Assembly: GCA_013540605.1 (NCBI GenBank)
Contig: JABVCK010000004.1
Span: 124,001-188,000 of the forward strand
Reading direction: 5' to 3'
DNA length: 64,000 bases
From: Bacillota bacterium
Lineage (GTDB): Bacteria > Bacillota > Clostridia > Ch29
Shown: one piece after another, positions 14,096 to 63,344 of the stretch
Numbering within the stretch: position 1 is the stretch's first letter
Layout of the letters: each line of letters begins with the position of its first letter
The notes under the pieces: model-generated
Databases searched by the model: none
Told to the model about the DNA's origin: nothing
What the model saw: the letters and a program-made list of their open reading frames with translations, nothing else
Translations under genes and position numbers: made by a program

Positions 14096-14345
14096 AAAAA
14101 ACCCTCCGTCCTAGAAGGACGAAGGGCAAGCTTCGCGGTACCACCTTATTTCCCTGTAAGGGCTCTCAAATCAGGTTAACGGCTGAACCCGGCCCGGACT
14201 ACTGCTATTTCACCCGGACAGCTCGGTAGCTACCTTCAACAGGATACGCCGGGTGCCTTTCAGCCGGTGAACACCCTCTCTTGGGGCTGAAGCCTGTTTA
14301 CTCCTCTACTTCATCGCCTTTACCGACCATACATCAGTCTTTTAA
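14096..14345 (-). promoter_or_regulatory. T-box riboswitch controlling valS (specifier GUA)
   Basis: On the minus strand the leader contains the conserved T-box TGGTACCGCG (14134-14145 region). It is followed by a terminator stem CCCTTCGTCC / GGACGGAGGG and a T-run (14096-14126). In stem I, GTAG and AACAGG on the left pair with CTAC and CCTGTT on the right. This leaves a left loop AGGAGTA (with the AGUA element) opposite GAAGGTAG, so the specifier is GTA, a valine codon, at 14231-14233. Uncharged tRNA-Val would stabilise the antiterminator. Confidence 0.93.
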
Positions 14346-42782: not shown

Positions 42783-44819
42783 TTATTTATCAAACATACC
42801 TTTAACGGTGCTCTTTATCAATGCTTCATCCGCTATATACGGAATGGTTATATGGTCGGTACCTCTTCTCATAATGTTGTATTCGATGCATGTCTCGATT
42901 GAGTTATTGTTCCTTGCCCAGGAGCGCCTTGCCACACCGCCCATGACATCCCAGGGGATTGCGCTTTTGATCACCTCGTCAACCCGCTCGCTGCCGTCGA
43001 GAACAAGCCCAAAACCTCCGTTTACCGCTTTGCCTATGCCCACTCCCCCACCGTTGTGAAGCGCAACCAGGCTCATCCCCCTCGCGGCGTTTCCGGCGAA
43101 ACACTGCGTGGCCATGTCCGCCATTATGTTGCTGCCGTCTTTTATGTTGGAGGTTTCCCTGAAGGGGGAATCGGTACCTCCTGTATCATGGTGGTCCCTT
43201 CCCAGCATTACAGGGCCTATTTCCCCTTTGCGCACCATCTCATTGAACCTAAGGGCTATGTTCATCCTCCCCATGGCATCCTGGTAAAGTATTCTGGCCT
43301 TTGTTCCTACCACCAGCCTGTTTTTATGGGCATCCCTGATCCACACATAGTTGTCCCTGTCCTGGAACCTCCTGTCAGGATTTATGCATTCCATCGCCGC
43401 CCTATCGGTCTTCAGGAGGTCATCCTCCTTTCCGCTGAGGCAGACCCATCGGAAGGGACCGTACCCGTAGTCAAAAAGCACAGGTCCCATAATGTCTTCC
43501 ACGTAGGACGGGAAAATGAAACCGTCCAGGGGATTTTCTCCGTTCCTGCATATTTCCTTGACTCCGGCGTCGTAAACCGCCTTCATAAAGCTATTGCCGT
43601 AGTCGAAAAAGTATGAACCTCTGTCTACCAGCTGTTTGATCAGCTCATAATGCTTTCTCAGGGACTTGTCAACCAGAGCCCTGAATCTTGCCTTATCGGT
43701 CCTCAGCAGTTCGGTGCGCTCATCGAAGGTAAGCCCCTGGGGGCAGTACCCGCCGTCATAGGCAGCGTGGCACGATGTCTGGTCGGACAGCAAATCTATA
43801 TGTATATTATTGTCCGCAGCGTATTCCAGCAAATCCACCACGTTCCCAAAAAACGCTATTGCCGCGCCCTCATTCTTCTCCATGTGCTCCCGTGCAAGCT
43901 TGAAGGCCTGGGAGGGGTCCTCCGCAATACTGCCCACCCATCCCTGCTCATATCTGGTCCTGATCCTGGAATAGTCCACCTCTGCTATGATGCCCACGCC
44001 GTTGGCTATCTCAACCGCCTTCCCCTGGGCACCGCTCATCCCGCCAAGGCCGGATGTTACATAGAGGCGGCCCCTCAAATCGCTGTCTGCAGGGATACCG
44101 AGTTTGTCCCTGCCGGCATTGAGGATGGTGGAGTAGGTCCCGTGCACTATACCCTGAGGCCCGATGTACATCCAACCCCCGGCGGTCATCTGGCCGTAGT
44201 TGGCAACGCCCAGCGCCGCAGCCCGGTGCCAGTTCTCCTGGTCATCGAACATGCCCACCATCAGAGCGTTGGTGATTATTACCCTCGGGGCGTTGGGCGA
44301 AGATTTGAAAAGCCCCAGAGGATGTCCGGATTCTACGACCAGGGTTTGATCCTGAGTCATTGTTTCCAGATATCCTTTAATAAGCCAATACTGCATCCAG
44401 TTCTGGCAAACCTGGCCGGTTTCGCCGTAGGTTACCAGTTCATAGGGATACAGGGCTATGTCAAAATCCAGGTTGTTGTCTATCATCACCTGGAACGCCT
44501 TTCCTTCAAGGCACATACCCCTGTATTCATCAACCGGCTTTGCCTTTATATTGCCCGGGGGCCTGAAACGATACCCGTAAATCCTGCCCCTGTTCACCAG
44601 CTCGTCCAGGAACTCCGGCGCCAGTTCTTCATGCCATTTCCCGGGAATATACCTCAAAGCGTTCTTCAGGGCAAGTTCTGTCTCTTCCCGAGTGAGGGTG
44701 AATTCCCTCTTGGGCGCTCTACGTATACCTTCCACGAACTGCGGCATCTCCGGCAGTTCGGTGAAGATATCTTCCAGCTTTATTCTCATTGCGTCCGAGA
44801 CATCCCTATTGGTTATCAT
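42783..44819 (-). CDS. hutU: Urocanate hydratase (long form)
   Basis: This 678-residue NAD+-dependent enzyme converts urocanate to imidazolone propionate in histidine degradation. Family motifs include YVTSGLGGMSGAQGKA, SDQTSCHAAYDGGYCPQG with the active-site cysteine region, DHHDTGGTDSPFRET and LHNGGGVGIGKAVNGGFGLV. It is about 120 residues longer than the common 550-560 aa enzyme; such long forms are known in Firmicutes. No hutH, hutI or ftcD is in the window. The ATG at 44819 follows GGGAGG. It is co-transcribed with the PHP gene, 24 bp upstream. Confidence 0.92.
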   Translation of the reverse strand: MITNRDVSDAMRIKLEDIFTELPEMPQFVEGIRRAPKREFTLTREETELALKNALRYIPGKWHEELAPEFLDELVNRGRIYGYRFRPPGNIKAKPVDEYRGMCLEGKAFQVMIDNNLDFDIALYPYELVTYGETGQVCQNWMQYWLIKGYLETMTQDQTLVVESGHPLGLFKSSPNAPRVIITNALMVGMFDDQENWHRAAALGVANYGQMTAGGWMYIGPQGIVHGTYSTILNAGRDKLGIPADSDLRGRLYVTSGLGGMSGAQGKAVEIANGVGIIAEVDYSRIRTRYEQGWVGSIAEDPSQAFKLAREHMEKNEGAAIAFFGNVVDLLEYAADNNIHIDLLSDQTSCHAAYDGGYCPQGLTFDERTELLRTDKARFRALVDKSLRKHYELIKQLVDRGSYFFDYGNSFMKAVYDAGVKEICRNGENPLDGFIFPSYVEDIMGPVLFDYGYGPFRWVCLSGKEDDLLKTDRAAMECINPDRRFQDRDNYVWIRDAHKNRLVVGTKARILYQDAMGRMNIALRFNEMVRKGEIGPVMLGRDHHDTGGTDSPFRETSNIKDGSNIMADMATQCFAGNAARGMSLVALHNGGGVGIGKAVNGGFGLVLDGSERVDEVIKSAIPWDVMGGVARRSWARNNNSIETCIEYNIMRRGTDHITIPYIADEALIKSTVKGMFDK

Positions 44820-44843
44820 GCATACCAACCTCCCGAAATTTTA

Positions 44844-50944: not shown

Positions 50945-52048
50945 TTATTCCTTCACGATTAGTTCCACCGCTTTATGGACAAGTATCCCGCTCACAAACC
51001 CGTAGGCCATATTCCCTATAAGCGAGACTGCTACTGTTGCGGCCAGAGGAATAAAGTCTTTATCAAGGCGAATGCCTTTGCCGAATTTAGCCAGCTCCAA
51101 CCCTACCATAAACATCATCGCCCCCACTATAGCGGTTGGAAATGCCGCAAATATCGCCGCTATGGAACCGGCCAGGAACAGGCCTGCCAGCACTTCCAGC
51201 GTCCCCTCCATAATGTTTGTGCCGCCGGTCCGGGCTCCAAAATAATATTGACCTGCCAAGCCGCCGGCGCCATGACACATGGGCATCCCGCCGAAAAACG
51301 GCACAACAAGATTCATTACGCCCATATTCAGTGAAAGCCTCTTCTCGCTTACGGGTTTATCCGGCCAGTATTTTTTTATCAGTGCCGAAGTAGCAATAAC
51401 GGCATTTGTAGCAGTCAGGGGTATCTGGGCAAAGCCGCCTAACAAAAGCGACTGCCAGACTTCCTGCAGGCTAAAGGTGGTAAACTGCGGCAGGCTGAAA
51501 GCCGGTGCCCCCACCTGCCCAAATTGCCCCTTGGCCATCATTATGATTAATCCCATCAGTACCAGGACGAGGGCTGCCGGTGCATACCGGTTCTGTCTCA
51601 ATGCGATAATTATCAGAATGGAGATAATAGCGATAGTCCATCCATCGGTCATCATCTTTAAGGCTTGAAACGAGAGAAGAATACCCAGCGATACCTGTAT
51701 GCCTCTAATAACAGGGTGGGGTGTTGTTTTAGCGATAAAGTCCATAATCCCGGTGATGGAAAGCAATAACCAGATTATACCCATGGCAAAACCGGAAGCA
51801 TATATCATGGATGGCGTCCACTTCTGGGCGATAGCCACTACGGCAAGAACCTTCATGGGCTCTATTGGCATTGGCAGCCTGTAAACCAGCCCTGTCACTA
51901 TGTTTGCCAGGCCCATCATAACAAGGAAACCGGCCGGGTCCAATCCACAGGATACTATATACCCGATGGCCAGAGGAAAGAGCGTGCCGAAATCCCCCAT
52001 TGAACCTGCCAGCTCCCTCAGGTTGAACTCAAAGGATTTAATCTTCAC
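50945..52048 (-). CDS. MOT1-type molybdate/sulfate transporter family protein
   Basis: This 367-residue membrane protein has about ten helices. The family signatures are GSMGDFGTLFPLAIGYIVSCGLDPAGFLVMMG and YRLPMPIEPMKVLAVVAIAQ in the first half, and PMCHGAGGLAGQYYFGARTG in the second. These are hallmarks of the MOT1/SulP-like group that imports molybdate. The start chosen is GTG at 52048 after AAGGTGGGG. It is the last gene of the molybdenum-cofactor-linked minus-strand cluster, after the GntR regulator. Molybdate as substrate is inferred from family and context. Confidence 0.85.
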   Translation of the reverse strand: MKIKSFEFNLRELAGSMGDFGTLFPLAIGYIVSCGLDPAGFLVMMGLANIVTGLVYRLPMPIEPMKVLAVVAIAQKWTPSMIYASGFAMGIIWLLLSITGIMDFIAKTTPHPVIRGIQVSLGILLSFQALKMMTDGWTIAIISILIIIALRQNRYAPAALVLVLMGLIIMMAKGQFGQVGAPAFSLPQFTTFSLQEVWQSLLLGGFAQIPLTATNAVIATSALIKKYWPDKPVSEKRLSLNMGVMNLVVPFFGGMPMCHGAGGLAGQYYFGARTGGTNIMEGTLEVLAGLFLAGSIAAIFAAFPTAIVGAMMFMVGLELAKFGKGIRLDKDFIPLAATVAVSLIGNMAYGFVSGILVHKAVELIVKE

Positions 52049-52101
52049 AGTTGACCCCACCTTCACATAGTCACATCCTAATGCACTTAGCACTTAAACG
52101 T

Positions 52102-52806
52102 TTATTCGCCGAATATATTCTGCTTTACAGTCAGCAGGTGTTTCCGCATTTCCCGTTCAGCTTTCCCCGGGTTTCTCTCCCTTATCGCATCAAATATATT
52201 CCTGTGGTCAGTTTTGTACTGCTGTATACGCCCGTGCTGCTGAAGGCTCTTGCGTTTTAGATTCCCCCATAGTACCCCCATACGCTCGTTGTTTATGCTT
52301 TCTTCAATTTTCAGCAAAACTTCGTTGTCGGCAATTTTTGCAATCATCAGATGGAACTCTCTATCAATATTCTCATATCCGATATAGTCTTCATCACTCA
52401 ATGCTTCTGCCCTCTTAAGAATTGCGGAAAGTTCTTCGATCTCTTCATTGGTTGACCTTTGGGCTGCCAGCCTGGCTAGATCAGGTTCAATCACAATGCG
52501 AGCCTCAAACAATTCAAAGGGACTTATGCCCTTATCCATATCTTCGAGAATTATATCACCGGTTTCCCAGCTTTCAGGCTTTTCACAGACAAAGGTACCC
52601 GAACCGGTCCGGGATTCGATTAATCCCTGCATCTCCAATGCAGTCAGCGCTTCCCTTATGGTAGCCCTGCTGATCCCGAACTGGGATGCCATATCCCTTT
52701 CAGAAGGAAGCCGGTCGCCCGCTTTGATCTTCCCTTCTTTTATCAAGCTCTCAATTTGCTCAGCAACAAGCATATACATTTTTTTGCTTTTTACAGGGAT
52801 AAACAT
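52102..52806 (-). CDS. FadR-type GntR-family regulator
   Basis: A 234-residue transcription factor. The N-terminal winged helix includes VAEQIESLIKEGKIKAGDRLPSERDMASQFGISRATIREAL, followed by the helical FCD ligand domain (ELFEARIVIEPDLARLAAQR, FHLMIAKIADNEVLLKI, HRNIFDAIRERNPGKAEREMRKHL). FCD domains bind a metal ion and a carboxylated ligand. It sits between the kinase-like gene and the MOT1 transporter and probably controls that transporter. ATG start after GGGAG. Confidence 0.92.
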   Translation of the reverse strand: MFIPVKSKKMYMLVAEQIESLIKEGKIKAGDRLPSERDMASQFGISRATIREALTALEMQGLIESRTGSGTFVCEKPESWETGDIILEDMDKGISPFELFEARIVIEPDLARLAAQRSTNEEIEELSAILKRAEALSDEDYIGYENIDREFHLMIAKIADNEVLLKIEESINNERMGVLWGNLKRKSLQQHGRIQQYKTDHRNIFDAIRERNPGKAEREMRKHLLTVKQNIFGE

Positions 52807-52855
52807 ATTACACACTCCCAAAAATATTGATTTCCTATGCATCTTGTCATTGGCC

Positions 52856-53587
52856 TTAATACGTTAAAGCGGATTTAACAATTCCCTCCGGTATTTCCAT
52901 GTTTCTTCTGACACCTATCGCTTTGAGCTCTTTCCCTATCTCCCAGGCCACCCGTTCACTGTCCAGGTCCATCTCTTTGCCAAGTATATCGATGATCTGC
53001 TTTGCAAAACGCATTTTGTATGAAGTAAAGGCCGGCAGGTAGGTAATTATATACGAAAACAGTCTTCCCGCATCCTCCTCAATGCACCCCTCCCTGCAGT
53101 CTTCAAAATCCAGCCCGTACACCCTGTATGTAATCAAGAAGTTGCGCAGGTTCATATCCCAAAAAATTGTACTGCTTCCCGTAATCTCGGGGACGGCTCT
53201 ATAAAAGTCTTTCAACCAGCGGCATAAATGGACTGCCAGGCCATATGAGCCGGTATACACAGGACCGCTGTCCGGCCTCCCTTCCAGGTCGCTAATAATG
53301 TCGAGCAGGGTTGGCCCATTCAGGAATTCCAGCACGAGGAAATTCTCTCCCCTATAATACAGTTCAGGGACCGCAACCCCTCTATCGTGCAGTCCTGTCA
53401 GCAGCTCCGCCTCTCTATCCGCAGCGTTGTGCGGTTCTGCGTATACTTTTACTATATATGCTTTGTTTTCTCCGTTCAAGTGGACTGCCCTTATTTTGTA
53501 AACATCGTTTTTCTTGCTATCGAATTTCGTTTCTACACGGTATTCCCGTATATTGTTTGTACGAATGAACCCTTGGTCCAGCAGCAT
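52856..53587 (-). CDS. Protein-kinase-like (RIO/APH-type) phosphotransferase
   Basis: This 243-residue protein has a kinase-like fold. A VKVYAEPHNAADREAELLTGL segment suggests the ATP lysine and alphaC glutamate, followed by the hinge LVLEFLNGPTLLDII. The catalytic loop reads WDMNLRNFLI and the metal motif GLDFEDC, so the usual HxD and DFG are DMN and DFE. Its start overlaps the mobB stop as ATGA. It might phosphorylate a cofactor precursor or regulate partners. Kinase-like genes fused or coupled with MobB are not something I know. Confidence 0.65.
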   Translation of the reverse strand: MLLDQGFIRTNNIREYRVETKFDSKKNDVYKIRAVHLNGENKAYIVKVYAEPHNAADREAELLTGLHDRGVAVPELYYRGENFLVLEFLNGPTLLDIISDLEGRPDSGPVYTGSYGLAVHLCRWLKDFYRAVPEITGSSTIFWDMNLRNFLITYRVYGLDFEDCREGCIEEDAGRLFSYIITYLPAFTSYKMRFAKQIIDILGKEMDLDSERVAWEIGKELKAIGVRRNMEIPEGIVKSALTY

Positions 53588-54336
53588 CAGACACCACCTA
53601 TCCGAACTTCTATGCTCGCTCCGGGTCTATAGCCTTCCAACTCCTTGACTACCCCCTCAACGGCGTTAAACAGAATATTCTGGACAAAGGGTACCATGCT
53701 AATTTCCCTGCCATCGACCAGCAGCTTCACCCGGCCCTTTGAGATAATGCAGTCTTCCCTTTTCGCCTCACCCTTGAGAATTTTCGCCCCAAGCTCTTTG
53801 CAGGAATGACCACAGGCTGTGCAGCACTCGGGTGGGAAATCAGGAAGCTTTTCATAAACCTTGTCTTCTATAAGGTCTACCAGCCTTTCGATATCCTCGA
53901 TTGCGCTTATAACCGGTATTCCCCTGTATTCCGTCATCATATTTGCCAGCTTACCGGAAATTGCAAAAACAGTATCATCCAGCCTCTCGTCCACTTCCTG
54001 CGTTGAATGGGCTGTGACAATTTTCGGCGCATTGCAGTCGGTTACCCCTTCCAGCACAACAAAATCGTGATTATAGAATTTCAAAATTTCATCCATTTCA
54101 AGCATTCTTGGAAATAACACATCGGTCTCATAATATCCCCTTGCTGTGACCAGCTCGGAACCTGCCATTCTGTGCCTGTACGTATTGGTTCCCTCTTTGT
54201 CGATGGCGAATTGTTCAAAGTGAATCTCCTTGACCGAACCTACCGAATACCTCCTTCTTTTCAACTCCCTTATTATGTTCTCAATCGTCGTAGTTTTTCC
54301 TGACTGGGTTATTCCAAACACAGAGAATACTTTCAT
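53587..54336 (-). CDS. mobB: MobB-type molybdopterin-guanine dinucleotide protein
   Basis: A 249-residue GTP-binding protein of molybdenum-cofactor biosynthesis. The P-loop is FGITQSGKTTTIENII (residues 7-22), with the MobB features KEIHFEQFAIDKEGTNTYRHRMAGS and VVLEGVTD. A cysteine-rich insert, CCTACGHSC at 171-179 plus C196, could hold a metal or Fe-S cluster. MobB helps MobA add GMP to molybdopterin. Start ATG at 54336 after TGGAGGGTGG. It lies between ecfT and the kinase-like gene, which links the ECF transporter to Moco biology. Confidence 0.9.
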   Translation of the reverse strand: MKVFSVFGITQSGKTTTIENIIRELKRRRYSVGSVKEIHFEQFAIDKEGTNTYRHRMAGSELVTARGYYETDVLFPRMLEMDEILKFYNHDFVVLEGVTDCNAPKIVTAHSTQEVDERLDDTVFAISGKLANMMTEYRGIPVISAIEDIERLVDLIEDKVYEKLPDFPPECCTACGHSCKELGAKILKGEAKREDCIISKGRVKLLVDGREISMVPFVQNILFNAVEGVVKELEGYRPGASIEVRIGGV

Positions 54337-54352
54337 AGTCCCACCCTCCATT

Positions 54353-55099
54353 TCAGAACGGCCTGTAATAGCATAACAGCACCACCACACCCGCTATCAA
54401 ACTCATAATAATAGTAGCATAATCCCTGGGTTTCATACTCAAAATCATATAACTTGTTCTTTTCGGATATGCCCTGAAGGCCCTGGTTTCCATAGCAGTG
54501 GATAGCTCCCTGGATTTTATCATAGCCCCTGAAACTACGGGCATAACCAAACACGAATATATTTTGAACCTCTGCTTATACGGTATCTTGTCCAGATCCA
54601 CCCCTCTTAGCTGGATCGCGGTAACTACATTCTTCATTTCCTCGGACAGCGTCGGCAAAAACCTGATTCCAACCGAGACCATGAATGCAATTTCATAGGG
54701 GATTCTCCACTGCACAAGTCCCTGTATAATTTCCCTTGAGTTTGATGTCGACATAATGGTTGCGGATACCAATACTATTGACATCCTTAAGACCATAGAT
54801 ATTCCTTTCATGAAACCTCCGCCGGTTATCAGGGTAAATCCGCCTATGCTCAGCAGGCTTTCCCCCGAAGGTGCAAAAATACTCTGAACAACAGCTATAG
54901 CAACAAAAAGTCCAAGGATTCTTCTCATCTTCTTTACCACGGAAAATAACGGACTCCCAAAAGCTGTTGACAGGACTCCGGAGATTAAGAGCACACCGGT
55001 AAGCATATAGATATCCTGGATAAAGACTCCAAGCGTAGAGAGACATAGAACTATAACGAGCTTTGTCCTGGGGTCCATCCCATTAACGGCAGTCTTCAA
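54353..55099 (-). CDS. ecfT: ECF transporter transmembrane component EcfT
   Basis: A 248-residue membrane scaffold (CbiQ/EcfT family) with about five helices. The ATPase-coupling helices show the A-R-[GS] type motifs: SRELSTAMETRAFRAYPKRT near the C-terminus and EEMKNVVTAIQLRGVDLDKIPY in the middle. N-terminal MDPRTKLVIVLCLSTLGVF is typical. The most likely start is TTG at 55099, eight bases after GGAGG inside the end of the ecfA2 gene. With two ATPases and one S component in the same cluster the transporter is complete. Confidence 0.9.
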   Translation of the reverse strand: MKTAVNGMDPRTKLVIVLCLSTLGVFIQDIYMLTGVLLISGVLSTAFGSPLFSVVKKMRRILGLFVAIAVVQSIFAPSGESLLSIGGFTLITGGGFMKGISMVLRMSIVLVSATIMSTSNSREIIQGLVQWRIPYEIAFMVSVGIRFLPTLSEEMKNVVTAIQLRGVDLDKIPYKQRFKIYSCLVMPVVSGAMIKSRELSTAMETRAFRAYPKRTSYMILSMKPRDYATIIMSLIAGVVVLLCYYRPF

Positions 55100-55748
55100 C
55101 AATCTCACCTCCGGACATTTTTATTATCCTGTCGGAATGACGTTTAACAAATTCCTGGTCATGGCTGATTACGGCCATTCCAATCCCCTTCTGTCTAAGC
55201 TCCTCAAGGATTCCTGCAAGCACCTTTCTCCTATCCATATCCAGACCGGTTGTGGGTTCATCCAGGACCAAAAACCCCGGTTCGTTTACCAACACCGCAG
55301 CAATGGCCAGGCGCTGTTTCTCTCCCCTGCTAAGCTTAAACGGGAGGGATTCCTTCAAATGTAAAAGATGAAATGTTTCAAGAGAATTCTTCACCTTACG
55401 GTCAATTTCCTCCTTTGTACAACCCTTCAATTCCAGAACAAAAGATATTTCTTCCTTTACCGACGTTGCAAACAACTGATGGCTTGGATTTTGAAACAAG
55501 TACCCGATTTTGCTGCCAATTTCACCCAGGGTCATGGCCCTGCTATCCTTACCACAAATCAACACCTGCCCAGTGCTTGGTTTTAAAATGCCTGTCATGA
55601 GCTTGCCCAGGGTAGTTTTTCCGCTGCCGTTTGGCCCCGTGATGGCTGTAAACTGATGGCTGTACAGCTGCAGGGAAAGATCCTTGATTACAGGCCTTCC
55701 CTGCGGATATCCGAAACTGACTTTTCTTACCTCGATATACGGAAGAAT
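55083..55748 (-). CDS. ecfA2: ECF transporter ATPase EcfA2, probable ATT start
   Basis: A 221-residue ATPase: Walker A TGPNGSGKTTLGKLM, signature LSRGEKQRLAIAAVL, Walker B FLVLDEPTTGLD, switch AVISHDQEFV. The first ATG in frame (55598) lies after the Walker A motif, so it cannot be the start. The frame continues upstream through PYIEVRKVSFGYPQGRPVIKD, which is the proper N-terminus, without any ATG, GTG or TTG. An ATT at 55746-55748 lies seven bases after AAAGGGGG. A rare ATT start is therefore likely; a sequencing error is the alternative. Confidence 0.85.
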   Translation of the reverse strand: MLPYIEVRKVSFGYPQGRPVIKDLSLQLYSHQFTAITGPNGSGKTTLGKLMTGILKPSTGQVLICGKDSRAMTLGEIGSKIGYLFQNPSHQLFATSVKEEISFVLELKGCTKEEIDRKVKNSLETFHLLHLKESLPFKLSRGEKQRLAIAAVLVNEPGFLVLDEPTTGLDMDRRKVLAGILEELRQKGIGMAVISHDQEFVKRHSDRIIKMSGGEIVEDCR

Positions 55749-55771
55749 AGCTATACCCCCTTTACCTCTCT

Positions 55772-56458
55772 TTACAGGGTGCCGCTGAATGCTTCAAACT
55801 TTCCGTCTTTCAGGAGAAGGACACGGTCGGCAATATCCAGGTTGCCCCAGTCGTGCTCAACCATTATCACCGTCTTCCCGGCGCTTTTGAGTTCCTTGAT
55901 TATCTCTTTTATCGCCCTTCTGCCCTCTGTATCTATCTGGGACATCACTTCATCAAAAATCAATATGTCCGGCTTCAAACTGAGAACAGACGCAAGGGCT
56001 ATCAATTGTTTCTGTCCCCCGGAGAAATGGTTTGGGCTTCCAAACCTGAATTCCTCCATTCTTACCTGCATTAACGCTGCGTCAATCCTTTTTCCTATCT
56101 CCTCCCTGTCAATACACAGGTTTTCCGGTCCGAAGGCAATTTCGTCCTCCACGGTGGGGGAGAACAGCTGGGTATCGGGGTCCTGAAAGACAATGCCCAG
56201 CCTTGTGGCGATTTCCGGCACCTTGAGCTTGCCGGTTGATTCACCATATATTAAGACCTCGCCCCTCATTTCCCCACCGAATATATGGGGTATAATTCCG
56301 CTTAAGCAGTAGCAGAGGGTACTCTTACCGCTTCCGCTCAATCCTACTATGGCCAGTATTTCACCCTCTTCAGCCTTTAAATTGATACCCTTTAATATAT
56401 CCCCCTTTCCATCGGGGTAGCTGTAGTAAAGATTATGCACTTCAAGGGGATAACTCAT
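55772..56458 (-). CDS. ecfA1: ECF transporter ATPase EcfA1
   Basis: A 228-residue ATPase with Walker A VGLSGSGKSTLCYCLSG, the EcfA-type IPHIFGGEMRGEVLIYG region, Q-loop VFQDPDTQLFSPTVEDEIAFG, signature HFSGGQKQLIALAS, Walker B DILIFDEVMSQID and the switch histidine in VMVEHDW. The start overlaps the upstream gene by four bases. Pairs with EcfA2. Confidence 0.93.
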   Translation of the reverse strand: MSYPLEVHNLYYSYPDGKGDILKGINLKAEEGEILAIVGLSGSGKSTLCYCLSGIIPHIFGGEMRGEVLIYGESTGKLKVPEIATRLGIVFQDPDTQLFSPTVEDEIAFGPENLCIDREEIGKRIDAALMQVRMEEFRFGSPNHFSGGQKQLIALASVLSLKPDILIFDEVMSQIDTEGRRAIKEIIKELKSAGKTVIMVEHDWGNLDIADRVLLLKDGKFEAFSGTL

Positions 56459-56967
56459 TGAAGCTCAATCTCCATCACAAATTTGCACCATCTCTGGCTG
56501 AAGGGGTCCTTCCTTATAATGACCTGGTAAGGTCCGCTTCCTCCGTCTTCCTTCCTGCCCAGGGGCTCGCCATCCCTTTTGTAAGCCAGGTATACGTTAT
56601 CATCCTCCAGCACTTCATCCATATTAAGCGCTGAGGTATAACCGTCTACAGCCTTGACTATTACCATAGTCTTGCCTTCGGTCGGGATATTCTGCGAATC
56701 AAACACATTTTTAAGCGGAACCCCCGCAAAGCTGTGCTTCTCCGGGTCCTGTCCGCTGCTTTTTATATTGGCGTCAAATTCCACTTCTCCAAGGGTTTTT
56801 ATATATTCCATATCCACCCTGGCAACCTCCGCCCCATCAGACTTAATGATTAAGATGGCGTTATCCTGGCTGTCCTGTTTGGCTGCCAGGTCACCCCTAT
56901 TCATATAAGCCGTTATCCCGACTATAATAACGAGTATGGCCACCGCTGCAATGACTATTTTTTTCAT
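56455..56967 (-). CDS. Membrane-anchored protein with sulfite-oxidase-type molybdopterin fold
   Basis: A 170-residue exported protein. It has one N-terminal signal/anchor (VIAAVAILVIIVGITAYM) and an extracytoplasmic domain resembling a shortened Oxidored_molyb (SUOX/YedY) domain: HSFAGVPLKNVFDSQ, VIVKAVDGYTSALNMDEVL, VYLAYKRDGEPLGRKEDGG and SGPYQVIIRKD. It lacks the region that carries the Mo-ligating cysteine, so catalysis is unlikely and a cofactor-binding role is plausible. It overlaps the phosphodiesterase and ecfA1 genes by four bases each. Confidence 0.72.
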   Translation of the reverse strand: MKKIVIAAVAILVIIVGITAYMNRGDLAAKQDSQDNAILIIKSDGAEVARVDMEYIKTLGEVEFDANIKSSGQDPEKHSFAGVPLKNVFDSQNIPTEGKTMVIVKAVDGYTSALNMDEVLEDDNVYLAYKRDGEPLGRKEDGGSGPYQVIIRKDPFSQRWCKFVMEIELQ

Positions 56968-58226
56968 TTCCGTCCCTCCCCATCGGTTATAATATAGGGT
57001 ACTATCAAATCCTCAAAACAAAAGCTCCCATGGTCCCCTGCCTCCGGTGTGGAATGCATCCCATGGTCCGCAGTAATAACCACTTTGCCTTTCCATCGGG
57101 AAACCAGTTCTTTAACATATCCGTCGGTTCTGCTGACAGCTTCCATGGTTGACGGATGTATATCGCCGTAGCTGTGCCCGCTGTCATCAATGCCATGGAA
57201 ATGAACAACGAGAAGATTATAGTCACCATTCACATATTCCAGGGCGGTTTCCAGTATCTCATCATCGGTTATACCGTTTGAATTTTTGTCCACATTGAGC
57301 CTGGGCTCCAGGCTTGTATTCAATATCTTGATGTCCCCCTCCACCATGGCGCATTTCTTATTCATAACCAGGGCATCATTGAACACTGTTGGGGTCTTTA
57401 TATCCTTCTGCTTCCTAGAGTTGACCCCATTCTCCTCCGGCGGTTTACCCGTATACATAGCGGCCAATCCAGCATTGGTCACGGGCCTGTAAACGGATGT
57501 GGCCATATTCGCCGGAGGGAGGCTCGCCAGGAAGTTGGCATGCCCTGCTTCCACAGCGTACAGGTACTGGTGATAGCCAAAGCCATCCAGAATGATAAGC
57601 ATGACATTTTTATCGTTTTCAAGAAAATGAAGGGTGTCGTAATACGCGTCCATTATGCTCCCGACGGGTGGATCGACCATTATTCCCGCCAGGTCCGCAA
57701 CCCTGTTTTTAAGGTCAGGGCAAACATAGTCTATTGTATTATCTCCAATCTCCAGGTACCCGTCATTCTTTACCCTCCTGTATTCACCGTTCCTTCCCAT
57801 TATCAGCAGGTTCCCGTGCTTTTCCTCTATTACAGTTTTTAAGTCAACCATTCTTCTCTGCGTATAGATGCTGACACCGTATGTCTTACCGTCGTTCTCC
57901 ACCGAGGATTTCCCTTCAAACACCGGGAAATTCAACCTTATCCCGGCATAAAGCCGGCCTGCGGTCATATAGCCGATGTTTTCGGTAGGGCTGATGATGC
58001 CCATACCGTTGTCGGGCGAAGCGGCACCCGACACAACCACTATCTCTTTGATCCTTTCAAAGCCCTCCAGAGTATCGACCTTCAAGGGTTTTTCAACGTC
58101 CCCCACCACCGTGAAAACCGGAACATATCCGGTCGCCACGCCGCCGATGGTTGTTGTAGAAAATTTTCCTGCTGCAAACACCGCAAGGACCAGGATAATA
58201 CATAATACAAACACCTTCCATTTCAT
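56964..58226 (-). CDS. Exported type I phosphodiesterase/nucleotide-pyrophosphatase-like enzyme
   Basis: A 420-residue protein with an N-terminal signal anchor (VFVLCIILVLAVFAAG). An N-terminal domain (about 40-190) of unknown kind precedes an alkaline-phosphatase-superfamily domain of the NPP type. Metal and nucleophile sites are seen in MLIILDGFGYHQYL, the threonine/serine region NMATSVYRPVTNAGLAAMYTG, VVHFHGIDDSGHSYGDIH and VVITADHGMHSTPEAGDHGSF. Family members cleave phosphodiester or pyrophosphate bonds outside the membrane. In this cluster a dinucleotide cofactor would be a logical substrate. Start ATG at 58226 after GGGGTGG. Confidence 0.8.
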   Translation of the reverse strand: MKWKVFVLCIILVLAVFAAGKFSTTTIGGVATGYVPVFTVVGDVEKPLKVDTLEGFERIKEIVVVSGAASPDNGMGIISPTENIGYMTAGRLYAGIRLNFPVFEGKSSVENDGKTYGVSIYTQRRMVDLKTVIEEKHGNLLIMGRNGEYRRVKNDGYLEIGDNTIDYVCPDLKNRVADLAGIMVDPPVGSIMDAYYDTLHFLENDKNVMLIILDGFGYHQYLYAVEAGHANFLASLPPANMATSVYRPVTNAGLAAMYTGKPPEENGVNSRKQKDIKTPTVFNDALVMNKKCAMVEGDIKILNTSLEPRLNVDKNSNGITDDEILETALEYVNGDYNLLVVHFHGIDDSGHSYGDIHPSTMEAVSRTDGYVKELVSRWKGKVVITADHGMHSTPEAGDHGSFCFEDLIVPYIITDGEGRK

Positions 58227-58237
58227 AGCATCCACCC

Positions 58238-58801
58238 CTATGCCTCAAAGTTCCCGAGGTTAAGCTTTTTGAACTGCTTGACTACATTGAAAGCGATTAT
58301 CCCGCCGACGCCCCCTGAAAGGGCTGCGCTGCTCAAACTTAACAGCAGCGGAATTAAAGGCAGTCTGAAAAAGACCAGATTTACAAGAAAGGTACCGCTG
58401 ATATTGGACACTATTCCCGCCGCGAAACAGCAACCTAGGCAGCATCCCCTGTGTCTGATCAAAAACAGAAGTAGGTCGACCGAGAGTCCGGGAAGGATAT
58501 ATGTGAAAAAGCTCATTATCCCATGGGTGCCGAATATGCCCAAGGAAATCACCATTATTGCCTGCACAACGGATATGAGGGTGGCAGCGCCCCTTTTGCC
58601 CACAAGCCCTGCCCCCATAACTATCCACATCATATAGAAGCCGCCGGCGATTACCCCTCCCGGTATGTATAGGGGCCCTGTAATGATATGCGCGAGAGGG
58701 ACCACCACCGGTTTTATCGCTATGCCAATGGCCGCCATCATGGCGATAACCACCAGGTCAAACATAGAGAACCCGGACATAAATTTTCTGAATGCCACCA
58801 T
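58238..58801 (-). CDS. ECF transporter substrate-specific (S) component
   Basis: A 187-residue membrane protein with six predicted helices and the small-residue-rich first helix expected of S components (FDLVVIAMMAAIGIAIKPVVVPLAH). Other segments are GPLYIPGGVIAGGFYMMWI, IMSFFTYILPGLSVDLLLFLI and a cysteine cluster RHRGCCLGCCFAAG between helices 4 and 5. It does not match an S component whose vitamin or metal I can name. Its operon context points to a molybdopterin-type or Mo/W ligand. Ribosome site GAGGAG. Confidence 0.8.
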   Translation of the reverse strand: MVAFRKFMSGFSMFDLVVIAMMAAIGIAIKPVVVPLAHIITGPLYIPGGVIAGGFYMMWIVMGAGLVGKRGAATLISVVQAIMVISLGIFGTHGIMSFFTYILPGLSVDLLLFLIRHRGCCLGCCFAAGIVSNISGTFLVNLVFFRLPLIPLLLSLSSAALSGGVGGIIAFNVVKQFKKLNLGNFEA

Positions 58802-58814
58802 CACCACTCCTCAG

Positions 58815-59003
58815 CTATTTTGCAACTATAATCTTTACCGTCTTCTTGATCCACCAGTTTGAACCCTTATCGTTGACAACCAGCTGGACCGGGCCGGATT
58901 CTTCGTCAAGGTCGTTTCCATCCACCTTCAACCCTAGGATAGTGCCTTCACTCTCCACAAGGTCCGGGGTATACTCCGATATATTACCTCCGGCACTGAT
59001 TAT
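58815..59003 (-). pseudogene. C-terminal remnant of a molybdopterin-fold domain
   Basis: Between the DUF364 gene and the S component a frame ending at 58815 encodes LIISAGGNISEYTPDLVES, LGLKVDGNDLDEESGPVQLV and KGSNWWIKKTVKIIVAK. This matches the last third of the SUOX-like domain found in the two neighbouring lipoproteins (dGxpL...GPvqlvv). No ATG or well-placed GTG/TTG opens it; a GTG at 58958 would give only 47 residues. It is either a truncated domain left by deletion or a small gene with an unusual start. Confidence 0.55.
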
Positions 59004-59746
59004 TAAATCCGCCTGTACACCTGAACTACGCTGTCCCCAAGGGAAAGGCCTCCGCCTCCCTGGCTCGCGATTCTTAATACCCTCTGAGGGTCAGCCACCG
59101 CAGCCCCCGCCAGCATTGTTACTCCATGCTCTTTGAAGACCTCGGGGCACAGGGATGCCGTTGGGCCCATAACCACAATCTCCCTCGCCTTCCTGCTCTT
59201 CTCCAGTATATGGTCCATGGTCTTGTTGAGTAAAGTTGTGCCGGTTATCACCACCACATCGCATTCGGGAAGGTAAATATCCTCGGCCCAATCCGGCAGA
59301 AGGCACCTGTCGTCGGTAATGTTCCTCTCGAATACGTATATCTGTTTCGCCCTTCCGGTGAACTTTTCCATGACCGGCTTGAAATATCCTATCATGCCCA
59401 GCACGTCTCCCGGCCTCACGTCTATCTTTTCTATGACATCCCCTCTGCTAAAGCCCTCTAACCTCTGCTGAAGTATTGCATTTATTACGGCCAACCCTAT
59501 AGCAGATTTGACCAGGTTTGTATCCATAGCCCACCGGATGATTTCTTCACAGCCGACGCCTATAAGGTTGCCCGCTTCTTCCACGAGTCCGCAGGTGGGA
59601 CCCAACTCGCTCCTGAATGTAAAGGTCAGCCCACAGCTCCCATCGTCCAGCAGCACGGTAGTATAACCGATTCCTACTCTTATATCCGCAATACTCCTTA
59701 TGGACGCATCGTCCTTGACGGCCTCTATCAGTTTATCAACAATCAT
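59003..59746 (-). CDS. DUF4213/DUF364 putative metal-chelation protein
   Basis: A 247-residue cytoplasmic protein. The N-terminal enolase-like DUF4213 part (IRVGIGYTTVLLDDGSCGLTFTFR) is followed by the Rossmann-like DUF364 domain with GDVLGMIGYFKPVMEKF, CDVVVITGTTLLNKTMDHIL and IVVMGPTASLCPEVFKEHGVTMLAG. The family is described as putative heavy-metal chelation and occurs with metal-uptake and cobalamin/molybdenum genes. The ATG lies two bases after the stop of the preceding lipoprotein gene. Confidence 0.88.
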   Translation of the reverse strand: MIVDKLIEAVKDDASIRSIADIRVGIGYTTVLLDDGSCGLTFTFRSELGPTCGLVEEAGNLIGVGCEEIIRWAMDTNLVKSAIGLAVINAILQQRLEGFSRGDVIEKIDVRPGDVLGMIGYFKPVMEKFTGRAKQIYVFERNITDDRCLLPDWAEDIYLPECDVVVITGTTLLNKTMDHILEKSRKAREIVVMGPTASLCPEVFKEHGVTMLAGAAVADPQRVLRIASQGGGGLSLGDSVVQVYRRI

Positions 59747-59747
59747 T

Positions 59748-60860
59748 CTAGTTACCCTTAACCGTTTCCACCGAAAGCAGTCCCTTGATGGACGTATTTT
59801 TGGGTAACCCGTCGAAATAGACTGCAACCTGTCCCTTGTCGTTGATGTAAACTATCCCCTTCCCCATGTCTCCTGCGCCTATCTCGACGGTATATCCATC
59901 CTCCGCCGTCAGCAAATACACTTCGGCACTGGAAAGGCCCGTTTCAGAGATGATATCCGTCATGCCTATGCCCTGCTTTTCCCCGGCAGTCTTTATGTCC
60001 ATACATTCCAATCCCTTTTCTGCGGAGAAAACCACATTGCCGCCGTAGGTAAACCACAGTATATTTTTAATATACATTCCCTTGGGCAGGTCAGGGGACA
60101 AAAATGCCGGCGTATCATCTCCGGTGAATTTAATATATCCACCGTTGAATATATCCCTCTGTTCATTCTTCTCAAACCCGTCCGCAGCTTTAAAAGCAAC
60201 TGTGTCAGGTTGGTCTTCTATGCCAAGATAAGAGATCAGTTGGTCTACCCTGACAGCCTTATCCGTACTCTCATAATAGGTGTAGTCCTCGGCCGGGGTG
60301 CCTGAAAACCCGGTTTCAATGAAGTAGAGCCTGTTAACCTCGGTACTTTTTATTCCCTCCAGAACTTCTATTTTTGCCAGATTCCTTACCCAGTACATTG
60401 CCCTCTCCCCGGGAACCACTGCCCTTACGGGTTTGCTCTGCTCGTCCAGGGGCTGGCCGTCGATTGTGTGGGCCAGAATAACATCCCTGGCTTCCAGCAC
60501 CTCCGGCGGAACCTCAATGGAATAACCGTCTCCGGCCACCAGCCTTATCCCGGAAAGGTCCCTTTGGGATTTCCCATGTTTCTTCAGCAGGTCCTCTAAA
60601 AGAGGTCCGGTTACAGTGTAGGTATTCGTATTGCCTGCGGAGTCAATAGCCACTGCGTCTGTGGTTACAGACTCCATGCTTTTTAGCTCTTCAACCGTCA
60701 CCTCAATGTCCGTGCTTTCCAACCCGGTTATCACAAGCTTTTCGCCCTCTTTACCCTCTTCCGGAGCCGCATTCTCCGCCGGCTTTGAACATCCGGCCGC
60801 AGCCATCATCAGTATCAGCAAGACGGCGGCGATGCTGAACGCAAATAATCTTTTTCCCAT
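59748..60860 (-). CDS. Lipoprotein with two sulfite-oxidase-like (molybdopterin-fold) domains
   Basis: A 370-residue lipoprotein: signal FSIAAVLLILMMAAAGC with lipid Cys at about residue 24. It contains a first SUOX-like domain with YTVTGPLLEDLLKKHG, IRLVAGDGYSIEVPPEVLE, VILAHTIDGQPLD and PVRAVVPGERAMYWVRNL. A second, more degenerate copy follows (VRVDQLISYLG, VAFKAADGFEKNEQRD, ECMDIKTAGEKQG). The cysteine that ligates Mo in true enzymes is absent. This suggests a surface-bound protein that binds molybdopterin or a similar ligand rather than an enzyme. The downstream DUF364 gene is tightly linked. Confidence 0.78.
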   Translation of the reverse strand: MGKRLFAFSIAAVLLILMMAAAGCSKPAENAAPEEGKEGEKLVITGLESTDIEVTVEELKSMESVTTDAVAIDSAGNTNTYTVTGPLLEDLLKKHGKSQRDLSGIRLVAGDGYSIEVPPEVLEARDVILAHTIDGQPLDEQSKPVRAVVPGERAMYWVRNLAKIEVLEGIKSTEVNRLYFIETGFSGTPAEDYTYYESTDKAVRVDQLISYLGIEDQPDTVAFKAADGFEKNEQRDIFNGGYIKFTGDDTPAFLSPDLPKGMYIKNILWFTYGGNVVFSAEKGLECMDIKTAGEKQGIGMTDIISETGLSSAEVYLLTAEDGYTVEIGAGDMGKGIVYINDKGQVAVYFDGLPKNTSIKGLLSVETVKGN

Positions 60861-60864
60861 GTGA

Positions 60865-61374
60865 CTATTCTACCTCCTCATAGATTTTCGCAAAGTTTTC
60901 AAAACATTGGTTTACTCCCTCAATGACAGCCTGGCTTGTCTTAGTAGCACCCGTGATAGCCACTATCTCATCCTGTGCCTTGGCTGACAGCTTCACCAGC
61001 TTCAGGGGGCTCCCCGCCTTTTTCCCGCTGAACCTGCCCAGGAACCATCCCTCGGTAAGGTATCCGCCGTAGTCTTCGCTTTCGTGGTGCTCCAGTATTG
61101 CCAGCTTTTCCAAAGCCTTTGTACCGATGTTGATTGAAACGCGCATCCTGATATCACCCTTGAACCCCTGAACGGTTACCTCTTGTATGACGAACGTATT
61201 GTCAATTATGTACGTGCCTTTTATGCTGCCCGTTTCATAGTTGGGGAGCCTTTTGATTTCCAGTCCGGAGAACTCATTTCTAATATGTTCGGGTATTGAC
61301 CCGGCAGGCGAGCATGAGGTAAGCAAAAGAACAACCGTAAAGATAATGACTCTAGTGATTTTAATAGATACCAA
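60865..61374 (-). CDS. FMN-binding domain lipoprotein
   Basis: A 169-residue exported protein. The N-terminus (VIIFTVVLLLTSCSPA) is a lipoprotein signal with lipobox LTSC. The rest is an FMN_bind domain as in RnfG/NqrC, with the flavinylation-type motif ITGATKTSQAVIEGVN near the C-terminus. It probably carries covalent FMN outside the membrane. Starts upstream of 61446 are excluded because they fall in the terminator of the Moco riboswitch. Candidates are TTG at 61374, which touches GGGGG, or an ATT at 61365 nine bases after GGGGG. It is the first gene of the riboswitch-controlled operon. Confidence 0.8.
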   Translation of the reverse strand: MVSIKITRVIIFTVVLLLTSCSPAGSIPEHIRNEFSGLEIKRLPNYETGSIKGTYIIDNTFVIQEVTVQGFKGDIRMRVSINIGTKALEKLAILEHHESEDYGGYLTEGWFLGRFSGKKAGSPLKLVKLSAKAQDEIVAITGATKTSQAVIEGVNQCFENFAKIYEEVE

Positions 61375-61443
61375 CCCCCTATTCAATCGATAAAACAATA
61401 GCTCCCCACACGGGTGTGCAAGGAGCCATTTATTCCTTATCCA

Positions 61444-61471
61444 GCAAAAAACGCCTTCAAAGGAGGCGTTG
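61444..61471 (-). terminator. Riboswitch-linked terminator
   Basis: On the minus strand AACGCCT-CCTTTGA-AGGCGTT is followed by TTTTTG. It lies 35 bases beyond the candidate Moco riboswitch and ahead of the first gene, as expected for the expression platform. The GGAGG-like run in its loop side could alternatively pair with the riboswitch P1 region. Confidence 0.75.
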
Positions 61472-61504
61472 ATATACAGATAAAAATCGAACCGTATATG
61501 CTGT

Positions 61505-61605
61505 TCTTCTCCTTTCCACATCGGGAGGCATAACCGTTTCCAGCCATACCCTATCGGTCAGCACACCATAGGTTTTAAGCCTAAGGCGTGAAGACTCGGA
61601 GCTAT
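61505..61605 (-). promoter_or_regulatory. Candidate Moco (molybdenum/tungsten cofactor) riboswitch
   Basis: On the minus strand the leader folds into a closing stem CTCC (in CTCCGAG, 61595-61601) with GGAG (in GGAAAGGAG, 61509-61517). One internal hairpin is CACGCC-TTAGG...CCTAT-GGTGTG. A second hairpin, GGTAT-GGCTG-GAAA-CGGTT-ATGCC, is extended by GGG/CCC and capped by a GAAA tetraloop. The layout and the CTCCGAG / GGAAAGGAG ends agree with my memory of the Moco RNA motif. The promoter upstream, the terminator downstream and the Moco-linked genes support the call. A covariance-model search was not possible here. Confidence 0.7.
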
Positions 61606-61623
61606 GTATGTACTTGTAAGTAT

Positions 61624-61652
61624 ATTTTATTCAATTATCACGGGTTTGTCAA
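61624..61652 (-). promoter_or_regulatory. Sigma-A promoter of the Moco-linked operon
   Basis: TTGACA (61647-61652) and TAAAAT (61624-61629) are separated by exactly 17 bp on the minus strand, placing the transcript start near 61617, twelve bases before the riboswitch. It begins five bases after the stop codon of the DUF3343 gene. Confidence 0.85.
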
Positions 61653-61656: not shown

Positions 61657-61890
61657 TTATGCACTGTATATAAGTCTTTCCCTTCCGCCCTCTACTGCAA
61701 ACAGCTTGTGTATATCCTCGCTTATATACCGCCTTATATCTCCGTCCAGGACAACCCGTACGCCTATACCGCAGTCCGAGCTCAGTTTGCGCGGCACCGG
61801 CAGCAGTTCTATTGTGATGCCGTTCTTCTCCATATACCTTTTGTACTTCATTGCCCCCGAGTGGGTAAAAAAGGTTGCAACATATTCCAT
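61657..61890 (-). CDS. DUF3343 protein of the selenium module
   Basis: A 77-residue DUF3343 protein (YVATFFTHSGAMKYKRYMEKNGITIELLPVPRKLSSDCGIGVRV). The conserved cysteine lies in the SSDCGIG loop. The family regularly accompanies yedF/yedE and class V aminotransferases in bacteria that use selenium. I favour the second in-frame ATG (61890), preceded by AAGGT; the first is six bases upstream. Confidence 0.88.
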   Translation of the reverse strand: MEYVATFFTHSGAMKYKRYMEKNGITIELLPVPRKLSSDCGIGVRVVLDGDIRRYISEDIHKLFAVEGGRERLIYSA

Positions 61891-61896
61891 AAGCAT

Positions 61897-62118
61897 CTAC
61901 CTTGTCAAAGTCAATATAAAATCAGAGCCGCTCTTCTCAACGCTTACCTGGTACCCTGCATTTTTCCCAAACCTGGTCACGTTATCCCTGGCCGTGGTAT
62001 TGTCAACTATAACCTGCACGCCGCCGGTGCAATTCTCCACAGCCTTCTTTGTCAACAGGACCGGTTCAGGGCAGGACCTTCCCCTTGCATCCACCTGGTT
62101 AAGATTCAAGCTTGGCAT
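61897..62118 (-). CDS. yedF: TusA/YedF-type sulfur/selenium carrier protein
   Basis: A 73-residue TusA-family protein with the active cysteine in DARGRSCPEPVLLTKKAV (about C15) and the later DNTTARDNVTRFGKNAGY segment that is typical of YedF. It consists of the TusA domain only; full YedF proteins of selenium users have an additional C-terminal domain. Such proteins carry persulfide or perselenide sulfur/selenium. The start overlaps the end of yedE by 20 bases. Confidence 0.88.
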   Translation of the reverse strand: MPSLNLNQVDARGRSCPEPVLLTKKAVENCTGGVQVIVDNTTARDNVTRFGKNAGYQVSVEKSGSDFILTLTR

Positions 62119-63184
62119 CCCCCTTCACTTTAATATCGCTGCTCCTGTCAATATTAAAATAGCCAACCGCAAATACGGCGATAAACCCTATTATTACTGC
62201 AACCTGCCCGTTAGCTGTAGGCCCGTTAGCGGATGCGGCCAATCCGAAGTTGTGGGCAAAGGCTGCTCCGGCAGCCATTCCCATAACGGTTACGGCTGAA
62301 TCAATGTTGCCCTCGGCCGCCAGAATCAGCTGTCTTAGGGGGCACCCACCAAGGAGCACCGATGCCCACCCGGCCAGGGCCATTCCTAGAAAATTCCACA
62401 GCCCATCGGTATGCGCGATGGGTTGGCCCTCAAATCCTAGTTTAAATGTACCTGCAATAAGGTTGGCCGCCAGTGCTGCTGCAAATATTGCTATGAAGCC
62501 CGATAGAAGGTGCCAATCCTTAAACATTATAAGGTCCCTCAAACCGCCAACCATACAAAGCCTGGTCCTTTGTGCAAGGGCTCCGAGAGCCAATCCTGCC
62601 GCCAGGGATAAAACCACCGGCGCGTGCGCCGCGCCAGGGCCGCTTTCGCTGAAGAAGATGAATGCCGGTCTGACAATCAGAAGAACCAGCAAACCAAGGG
62701 CTATTGCCGGAAAAAGGTAGCCTTCAAAACTCGAAAGAGAATAAGTCCTTTTTAGCGAGAACCCTTTATTAAGAAATACAATGCCTATTCCTATCCCTGA
62801 AACAAATCCAAGAATACCGAATATCGCGTTAAGGTCTCCTCCAGCCAGCCTGAGTATCATTCTCAGAGGACATCCCAGAAACATCAACGCCCCCACTATA
62901 ACAATAAATCCGAGTACAAACCTGGCAAAGGGTGATGACCCTCCCCTGACGTTAAACTCCTTTGCCCCAAAGGCCATCAGGAAGGCTCCCAGCACTATAC
63001 CCAGGATTTCCGGCCTTATGTACTGGACTACCGCAGCCCTGTGCAGCCCCAGGGCTCCCACCGTATCCCTGATGAAGCAGGCAATGCAAAGCCCATAATT
63101 CCCCGCATTTCCCGATTTAACCAGAACCACGGCCAGTATGCCTGCTATGGCTCCGGTTATCATGATGCCTTTCTTGCCACCCAT
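62099..63184 (-). CDS. yedE: YedE-family selenium/sulfur transporter
   Basis: A 361-residue membrane protein with about ten helices and two copies of the family signature around conserved cysteines: ALMFLGCPLRMILRLAGGDLNA and SVLLGGCPLRQLILAAEGNID. Additional motifs are GNYGLCIACFIRDTVGALG and QRTRLCMVGGLRD. YedE-related proteins with YedF and DUF3343 are associated with selenium metabolism. Start ATG at 63184 after AAGGAGGGG. It forms an operon with yedF and the DUF3343 gene. Confidence 0.92.
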   Translation of the reverse strand: MGGKKGIMITGAIAGILAVVLVKSGNAGNYGLCIACFIRDTVGALGLHRAAVVQYIRPEILGIVLGAFLMAFGAKEFNVRGGSSPFARFVLGFIVIVGALMFLGCPLRMILRLAGGDLNAIFGILGFVSGIGIGIVFLNKGFSLKRTYSLSSFEGYLFPAIALGLLVLLIVRPAFIFFSESGPGAAHAPVVLSLAAGLALGALAQRTRLCMVGGLRDLIMFKDWHLLSGFIAIFAAALAANLIAGTFKLGFEGQPIAHTDGLWNFLGMALAGWASVLLGGCPLRQLILAAEGNIDSAVTVMGMAAGAAFAHNFGLAASANGPTANGQVAVIIGFIAVFAVGYFNIDRSSDIKVKGDAKLES

Positions 63185-63344
63185 GTTACCCCTCCTTATG
63201 TAGTACTGTTGCCAAAATTCACCTTTCACCAGTTATTTTATTAACAAATCCCGCAGAAGTACAATAACCGTAATTTATACAAGAACAGGTATTATAACAA
63301 ATATCTATCGTTGGAGCGGAGGGATTTGTAGTACAATAGGGTAA

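Follow-up and report, generated by a model that had tools for sequence, protein, structure and literature searches.

To our knowledge, the pyranopterin cofactors of molybdenum and tungsten (Moco and Wco) are regarded as too labile to be shared, the assumption being that every cell produces its own supply. The sole uptake described in the papers we found is that of a nematode, which acquires the cofactor from its diet by a route that is not known (PMC9793310). According to Regulski et al. (2008; PMC2408646), the form of the Moco RNA riboswitch that lacks the P3 stem is associated with users of the tungsten cofactor, and in Syntrophomonas wolfei such RNAs precede two 'sulphite oxidase' genes, which are treated there as exceptions; this unexplained arrangement is the nearest published clue to the system considered here. 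PruR (7KOS), an exported protein of the sulphite oxidase (SUOX) fold, has no molybdenum-ligating cysteine and binds pterins via a tyrosine (PMC13259868). We analysed a 64,000-nucleotide stretch of the genome of a Bacillota bacterium (contig JABVCK010000004.1, positions 124,001 to 188,000; hereafter the window, in whose numbering positions are given), in which a minus-strand operon spanning 61652-50945 is headed by a Moco RNA and encodes an energy-coupling factor (ECF) transporter together with SUOX-fold surface proteins. We consider it probable that the products of this operon take up the pyranopterin cofactor of tungsten (or of molybdenum) or the molybdopterin (MPT) moiety of that cofactor.

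Results

An operon for a complete ECF transporter begins with a Moco RNA

We assigned the domain identities in the operon with Pfam, which bore out the gene identities given in a preliminary description of this DNA: the matches are FMN_bind, Oxidored_molyb (in two proteins), DUF364/DUF4213, ABC_cobalt (PF09819), Phosphodiest, two ABC ATPases, CbiQ, MobB with a weak FeS motif, an APH-like kinase, GntR/FCD, and MFS_MOT1. The full ECF set is encoded together on the minus strand, as are all operon features below, and comprises the S component, a putative cofactor-binding membrane subunit (58238..58807), the ATPases EcfA (55772..56458) and EcfA' (55083..55775, with its start extended past the listed ATG), and the CbiQ-family transmembrane subunit EcfT (54353..55108). 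The S component falls in PF09819 (52.8 bits, cut-off 25.2), and its AlphaFold model (pLDDT 90) has the ECF S fold, with YkoE (5EDL) as the closest structure (E 7e-4, TM 0.75), followed by ThiT and RibU. A sequence search against solved S components, including YkoE, returned nothing at E 1. Within the YkoE-like family PF09819, this S component forms a new branch.

The closeness of the YkoE fold and the shared Pfam family would fit import of thiamin or a pyrimidine precursor, the role proposed for YkoE, the link to the Moco RNA then reflecting a cofactor-dependent need. We regard this as extremely improbable, because no solved S component is matched in sequence, no thiamin pyrophosphate (TPP) riboswitch was found in the window or in the 15 related loci scanned with Rfam, and it is MobB, the SUOX proteins, and the Moco RNA that recur instead. 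A thiamin role was therefore rejected for want of TPP context in the loci scanned.

The leader of the operon starts with a sigma-70-type promoter (TTGACA-17-TAAAAT, 61624..61652) that has 11/12 consensus matches and is the top of 31 promoter-like sites in the region. An Rfam covariance search detected the Moco RNA aptamer RF01055 with conserved structure at 61613-61493 (71.9 bits, the gathering score being 36; E 2e-15), and the covariance alignment reads without a P3 stem; the RNA is presumed to be of the tungsten-cofactor (Tuco) type. An intrinsic terminator follows (61450..61470), the 5' arm of which, CUCCUUU, doubles as the antiterminator partner, being the exact 7-base complement of AAAGGAG, which includes the 3' strand of the aptamer stem P1. 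The form with aptamer (P1) and terminator is predicted to fold at -56.0 kcal/mol versus -52.8 kcal/mol for the antiterminator form, and this arrangement is the layout expected of a transcriptional OFF switch. A second terminator-like hairpin (61397..61430) stands ahead of the first gene. The sigma-A promoter, Moco-like RNA, and terminator claimed earlier are thus confirmed, the RNA by covariance search; the absence of P3 points to the tungsten cofactor more than to Moco as its presumed ligand. A further P3-less Moco RNA lies ~2.5 kb before a moeA-moeA-moaA-moaC cluster in the window genome.

The module is conserved across related loci

Using the S component as the query, we collected 89 loci from relatives and GTDB species genomes, a few of them duplicated; because many contigs are cut, gene counts over these loci are lower bounds. 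Protein clustering identified a core consisting of the S component (85 loci), EcfA (76), SUOX-fold proteins (74), EcfT (73), MobB (53), a nucleotide pyrophosphatase/phosphodiesterase (NPP)-type enzyme (51), and the kinase (37), accompanied by surface layer (S-layer)-type proteins with multiple SUOX domains in 30 loci, FMN_bind in 25, and ApbE in 10. The usual order of the core module is Moco RNA, FMN_bind, SUOX, S, NPP, SUOX, EcfA, EcfA', EcfT, MobB, and kinase. The carriers are mainly Clostridia and Halanaerobiales, and some carrier records are titled Actinomycetota and Dehalococcoidia. DUF364, GntR, and MOT1 occur in only 6, 3, and 2 of the 89 loci, indicating that the accessory DUF4213-DUF364 protein (59003..59746, with the ORF listed to 59827), the GntR/FCD regulator (52102..52842), and the MOT1-type molybdate/tungstate permease (50945..52093) are local additions outside the core.

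A co-oriented Moco RNA lies upstream of the module in 48/79 non-redundant loci, or in 40/58 of those whose upstream DNA extends to 4 kb or more. We built a covariance model for the related loci from seven of the RNAs; among the 66 Moco RNA matches in these loci, 65 are without P3, and with Rfam's own RF01055 model seven loci from isolates score above threshold. An S-like match in L016 (35% identity) was excluded from the RNA association counts because its neighbourhood is unrelated. MoeA is inserted between MobB and the kinase in L047, L055, L060, and L081, and TupAB, or MoaC/MoaA with TupB, adjoin the module in other loci. The neighbourhood is thus conserved together with MobB, the Moco RNA, and, in places, MoeA, TupAB, MoaC, and MoaA, and of the system outlined in the preliminary description the ECF, SUOX, FMN_bind, NPP, MobB, and kinase core holds, whereas MOT1, GntR, and DUF364 drop out of it.

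Some loci differ in their RNAs and gene content. Two or three Moco RNAs stand in tandem before the module at L083:8186-8652, L063:6096-6370, L073:530-884, and L025:3438-3714. The Moco-RNA operon of a close relative (G003; L010:3977-8646) also encodes one more SUOX lipoprotein, FmdE-like and TiaS-like proteins, and a transporter of the FecBCD type; a comparable combination of FecBCD and TiaS-like genes is found in L025.

Carriers without cofactor synthesis genes keep molybdenum and tungsten enzyme genes

In a sample of 293 genomes of the class that are at least 95% complete, AOR-family (PF02730) genes are present in 11/11 genomes with the S component compared with 29/282 without it (Fisher p 8e-11); in the window genome, as many as 15 matches to the AOR family were obtained. 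Among 57 carrier genomes, MoaA is absent in 19, MoaC in 18, and MoeA in 15, and all three are absent in 13 (G003, G066, G067, G068, G069, G071, G075, G089, G092, G094, G095, G108, and G109). All 13 nevertheless encode AOR and/or PF00384 (formate-dehydrogenase-type) enzymes: 11 have 2-8 AOR matches, and the isolate Anaerosalibacter ND1 (G071) and G108 each encode a candidate formate dehydrogenase, its reading frame containing a TGA in frame, plus a second PF00384 enzyme. In moa-less loci, such genes are also found near the module, with a molybdopterin oxidoreductase operon directly after it in L041 and an AOR with an iron-sulfur partner ~1.7 kb downstream in L038. A search for PF00994 (the MogA/MoeA/CinA domain) found a CinA-sized protein alone in 10 of the 13 genomes, so that MogA is missing there too, and the absence of both MoeA and MogA in these 10 favours a metal-loaded cofactor as the substrate; of the other three genomes, G003 and G092 each gave in addition a short protein resembling MogA, and G108 one of 349 residues. 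The CinA-sized match itself was obtained in 13/13, which speaks against poor assemblies; further, the 13 have a mean of 12.8 elongation-factor-type genes versus 14.4 in other carriers, and G003 is 98% complete.

The main rival explanation is that the system imports just the metal, in the form of tungstate, molybdate, or a chelate, as CbiMNQO and NikMNQO do for cobalt and nickel, with the SUOX-fold proteins as accessories that capture the metal or chelate and MobB and MoeA as the proteins that load it. Several observations are consistent with this: Tup genes are neighbours of the module in some loci, as MOT1 is in the window, a FecBCD-type chelate transporter is encoded in the operons of L010, L011, and L025 (the first of which also has DUF364), metal transporters occur under the same riboswitch, and DUF364, whose structure family is described in PMC2954201, has been linked there to rare-metal transport. 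We nevertheless consider metal-only import unlikely. First, the 13 carriers without MoaA, MoaC, and MoeA have AOR- or formate-dehydrogenase-type genes but could not use the metal alone, which argues for import of the cofactor. Second, the fold of the S component is that of vitamin S components. Third, oxyanion uptake offers no obvious task for an enzyme of the nucleotide pyrophosphatase type or for a small-molecule kinase. The cofactor uptake reading of the preliminary description is thus supported by these carriers.

SUOX-fold and FMN_bind surface proteins accompany the transporter

Two window proteins contain an Oxidored_molyb domain (52.6 and 34.7 bits, cut-off 24), namely a lipoprotein with SUOX-fold domain(s) (59748..60860) and a membrane-anchored, PruR/SorA-like SUOX-fold protein (56455..56967) that adjoins EcfA in most loci. 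The lipoprotein reads DSAGN where SUOX enzymes have the Cys motif with the molybdenum-ligating cysteine, in agreement with the missing cysteine noted in the preliminary description. The match of SUOX1 to SorA begins at SorA residue 129. The anchored protein has profile matches to SorA (E 0.004) and, weakly, to the pterin-binding PruR (7KOS, E 0.013), and the N/D-x-Y tyrosine of the PruR family is aligned and conserved in comparison with the related chain 7KOM. Further, S-layer-type proteins of 1,300-2,700 residues in related loci contain up to eight SUOX-like domains. Examples of 1,500-2,700 aa with six to eight such domains are found at L014:13280-19501, L094:381-8417, and L015:2895-7442, the last of which has its own Moco RNA.

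This PruR likeness and the multidomain S-layer proteins could also be explained if the SUOX-like, FMN_bind, and NPP proteins formed a cell-surface signalling or redox system with PruR-like pterin sensing, for which the ECF transporter would take up a simple pterin. We consider this highly improbable; we noticed no partner of the DcpA type among the loci, and the links to Moco RNA, MobB, and MoeA and the pattern of cofactor auxotrophy would need a further explanation.

The first gene of the operon encodes an FMN_bind lipoprotein (60865..61374) with a probable TTG start at 61374, the mechanical ORF starting at 61521 within the riboswitch. It bears a TGATxTS flavinylation-type motif, which is kept in 24 relatives. 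At L015:484-2061, FMN_bind is fused to a SUOX domain in a single protein, implying that the two probably act together; perhaps they keep the cofactor reduced. Extracytosolic flavin chemistry offers another account of this lipoprotein, in which the ECF transporter would move FAD for ApbE to flavinylate it, as in EetB-FmnA of Listeria (PMC9973259), with the SUOX-like proteins in an extracellular redox chain. The FMN_bind lipoprotein with its motif in 25 loci, the ApbE genes in 10, and the EetB homologue (PF07456) and NusG_II protein of L014 agree with such a role. However, the window S component belongs to PF09819, not to the EetB family PF07456, most loci have no ApbE nearby, and the riboswitch is of the Moco type; no flavin mononucleotide (FMN) riboswitch was found heading the module, and the one in L017 precedes a RibU-type gene. 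On account of the S component's family and of the missing FMN riboswitch, we rejected a flavin role, which would also leave MobB and the AOR association unexplained and which we judge very unlikely.

The module encodes an NPP-type enzyme, MobB, and a kinase

The exported, membrane-anchored NPP-type nucleotide pyrophosphatase/phosphodiesterase (56964..58235) matches nucleotide pyrophosphatases both in sequence and in fold, and every expected metal ligand and the Thr nucleophile are conserved in the family alignment. NPP-type nucleotide pyrophosphatases cleave the pyrophosphate of molybdopterin guanine dinucleotide (MGD). The MobB-FeS P-loop protein (53587..54336, starting inside the listed ORF) has a PF03205 P-loop domain (68 bits) with GKTTT conserved. 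The adjacent small-molecule kinase (52856..53587) resembles APH and Bud32 kinases and keeps the catalytic Lys/Asp/Asn/Asp intact. An exported phosphohydrolase, an ECF importer, and an internal kinase would together resemble known vitamin salvage routes.

The window copy has lost pieces

Two features absent from the preliminary description set the window copy apart. Between the DUF364 and S genes, where relatives have an intact lipoprotein of 158-164 aa, the window has a remnant of a third SUOX-fold lipoprotein gene that retains ~57 C-terminal residues (58815..59001); intact counterparts are found at L010:4455-4949 and L013:5947-6423 and are present in G001 and G003. Further, the window NPP has 423 aa compared with ~495-506 aa in relatives, with ~65-75 residues of the N-terminal domain gone and the catalytic domain intact. 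As both are intact in relatives, the window copy has lost pieces, and the SUOX remnant suggests relaxed selection in a cofactor-prototrophic host. We make no claim that the NPP N-terminal domain is an extra SUOX domain, as hhalign gave a weak match (25% probability, E 8e-4) and a PDB search was negative.

Directly upstream of the riboswitch (61657-63229, minus strand) lie genes for a YedE-type Sulf_transp permease, a TusA/YedF-like protein, and a Se/S carrier-like protein (PF11823), a cluster likely to serve selenium or sulfur handling. A T-box leader (120 bits; 14112-14323, minus strand) precedes a valyl-tRNA synthetase gene at 11075-13735. A urocanase gene of histidine degradation lies at 42783-44828 (minus strand), and the chemotaxis proteins CheA, a triple CheW, and an MCP are encoded elsewhere in the window; both are ordinary.

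Discussion

We infer the ligand, the order of the steps, and the roles of the NPP, kinase, and FMN_bind proteins as follows. Surface SUOX-fold proteins without the metal-ligating cysteine would capture the extracellular cofactor, and the exported NPP-type enzyme would strip from it either the nucleotide (converting MGD or molybdopterin cytosine dinucleotide, MCD, to MPT) or some other phosphate group. From the SUOX-fold protein anchored next to the transporter, the pterin would then pass to the S component for import by the ECF complex. Inside the cell, the APH-like kinase may put a phosphate back, with MobB perhaps receiving or guanylating the imported cofactor. When the cofactor is plentiful, the P3-less Moco RNA would stabilise P1, free the terminator, and switch the operon off.

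Several points weigh against uptake of the cofactor. Pterin cofactors are labile outside proteins, and the kinase and NPP do not always co-occur. Most carriers can make the cofactor, the window host among them (MoaA 1, MoaC 1, MoeA 2), and in these, uptake would serve as a supplement. Completeness values cover 7 of the 57 carrier genomes, of which only one is without the pathway; genomes reached via contigs, some of them metagenome bins, have no such value, and synthesis genes are often clustered. Among AOR-positive genomes, MoaA is absent in 16/51 carriers compared with 2/29 S-negative genomes (p 0.013), but this comparison mixes assemblies of unequal quality and is confounded by it, and we therefore rely on the joint absence of MoaA, MoaC, MoeA, and MogA with CinA and elongation-factor genes present. 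Two nearly complete S-negative genomes (G252 and G258) have an AOR gene and no MoaA, so that either another import route exists or their AOR is non-functional or persists without cofactor. Finally, PruR binds small pterins, and its truncated pocket probably excludes Moco (PMC13259868); the likeness of the SUOX-fold proteins to PruR thus supports pterin binding in general and not Moco binding in particular.

We regard it as an even call whether this is the first dedicated prokaryotic importer of an intact, probably metal-loaded pyranopterin cofactor, whose carriers without synthesis and metal insertion are natural tungsten-cofactor auxotrophs fed by neighbours and whose surface arrays of SUOX domains catch and protect the cofactor. 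A conserved importer, if real, would mean that the cofactor serves some anaerobes as a vitamin and would explain genomes that are rich in tungsten enzymes and have no synthesis genes. It would also give a substrate to an orphan ECF S family and a role to many proteins annotated as molybdopterin oxidoreductases. We found no published description of bacterial Moco or molybdopterin uptake, or of an ECF transporter with molybdopterin, in a search whose reach stopped short of most subscription-journal papers and preprints, and this widespread gene cluster is apparently without an earlier description.

Among known systems, the dietary acquisition of Moco by Caenorhabditis elegans is alike in that mature cofactor is obtained from other organisms, although its transport mechanism is unknown and no homologous system is known (PMC9793310). 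The module shares its RNA family with the Moco/Tuco regulon, in which the P3-less form is tied to the tungsten cofactor; the accessible part of that work describes synthesis, molybdate/tungstate transport, and enzyme genes and proposes no cofactor importer (PMC2408646). PruR likewise has an exported SUOX fold without the molybdenum cysteine, and its N/D-x-Y tyrosine can be aligned, but it signals via DcpA in Proteobacteria and probably excludes Moco (PMC13259868), whereas the proteins of the module flank a transporter. The ECF flavin exporter EetB-FmnA of Listeria (PMC9973259) resembles the module in combining ECF parts with an FMN_bind lipoprotein, sometimes with ApbE nearby; its S component, however, is of PF07456, whereas that of the module is of PF09819 and is accompanied by Moco RNA, MobB, NPP, and kinase. 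With the ECF vitamin transporters of the YkoE, ThiT, and RibU groups, the module shares the complete S/T/A/A' set and the ECF S fold, and it differs from them in its new S branch, its dedicated SUOX-fold and NPP surface proteins, and a Moco RNA in the place of a vitamin riboswitch.

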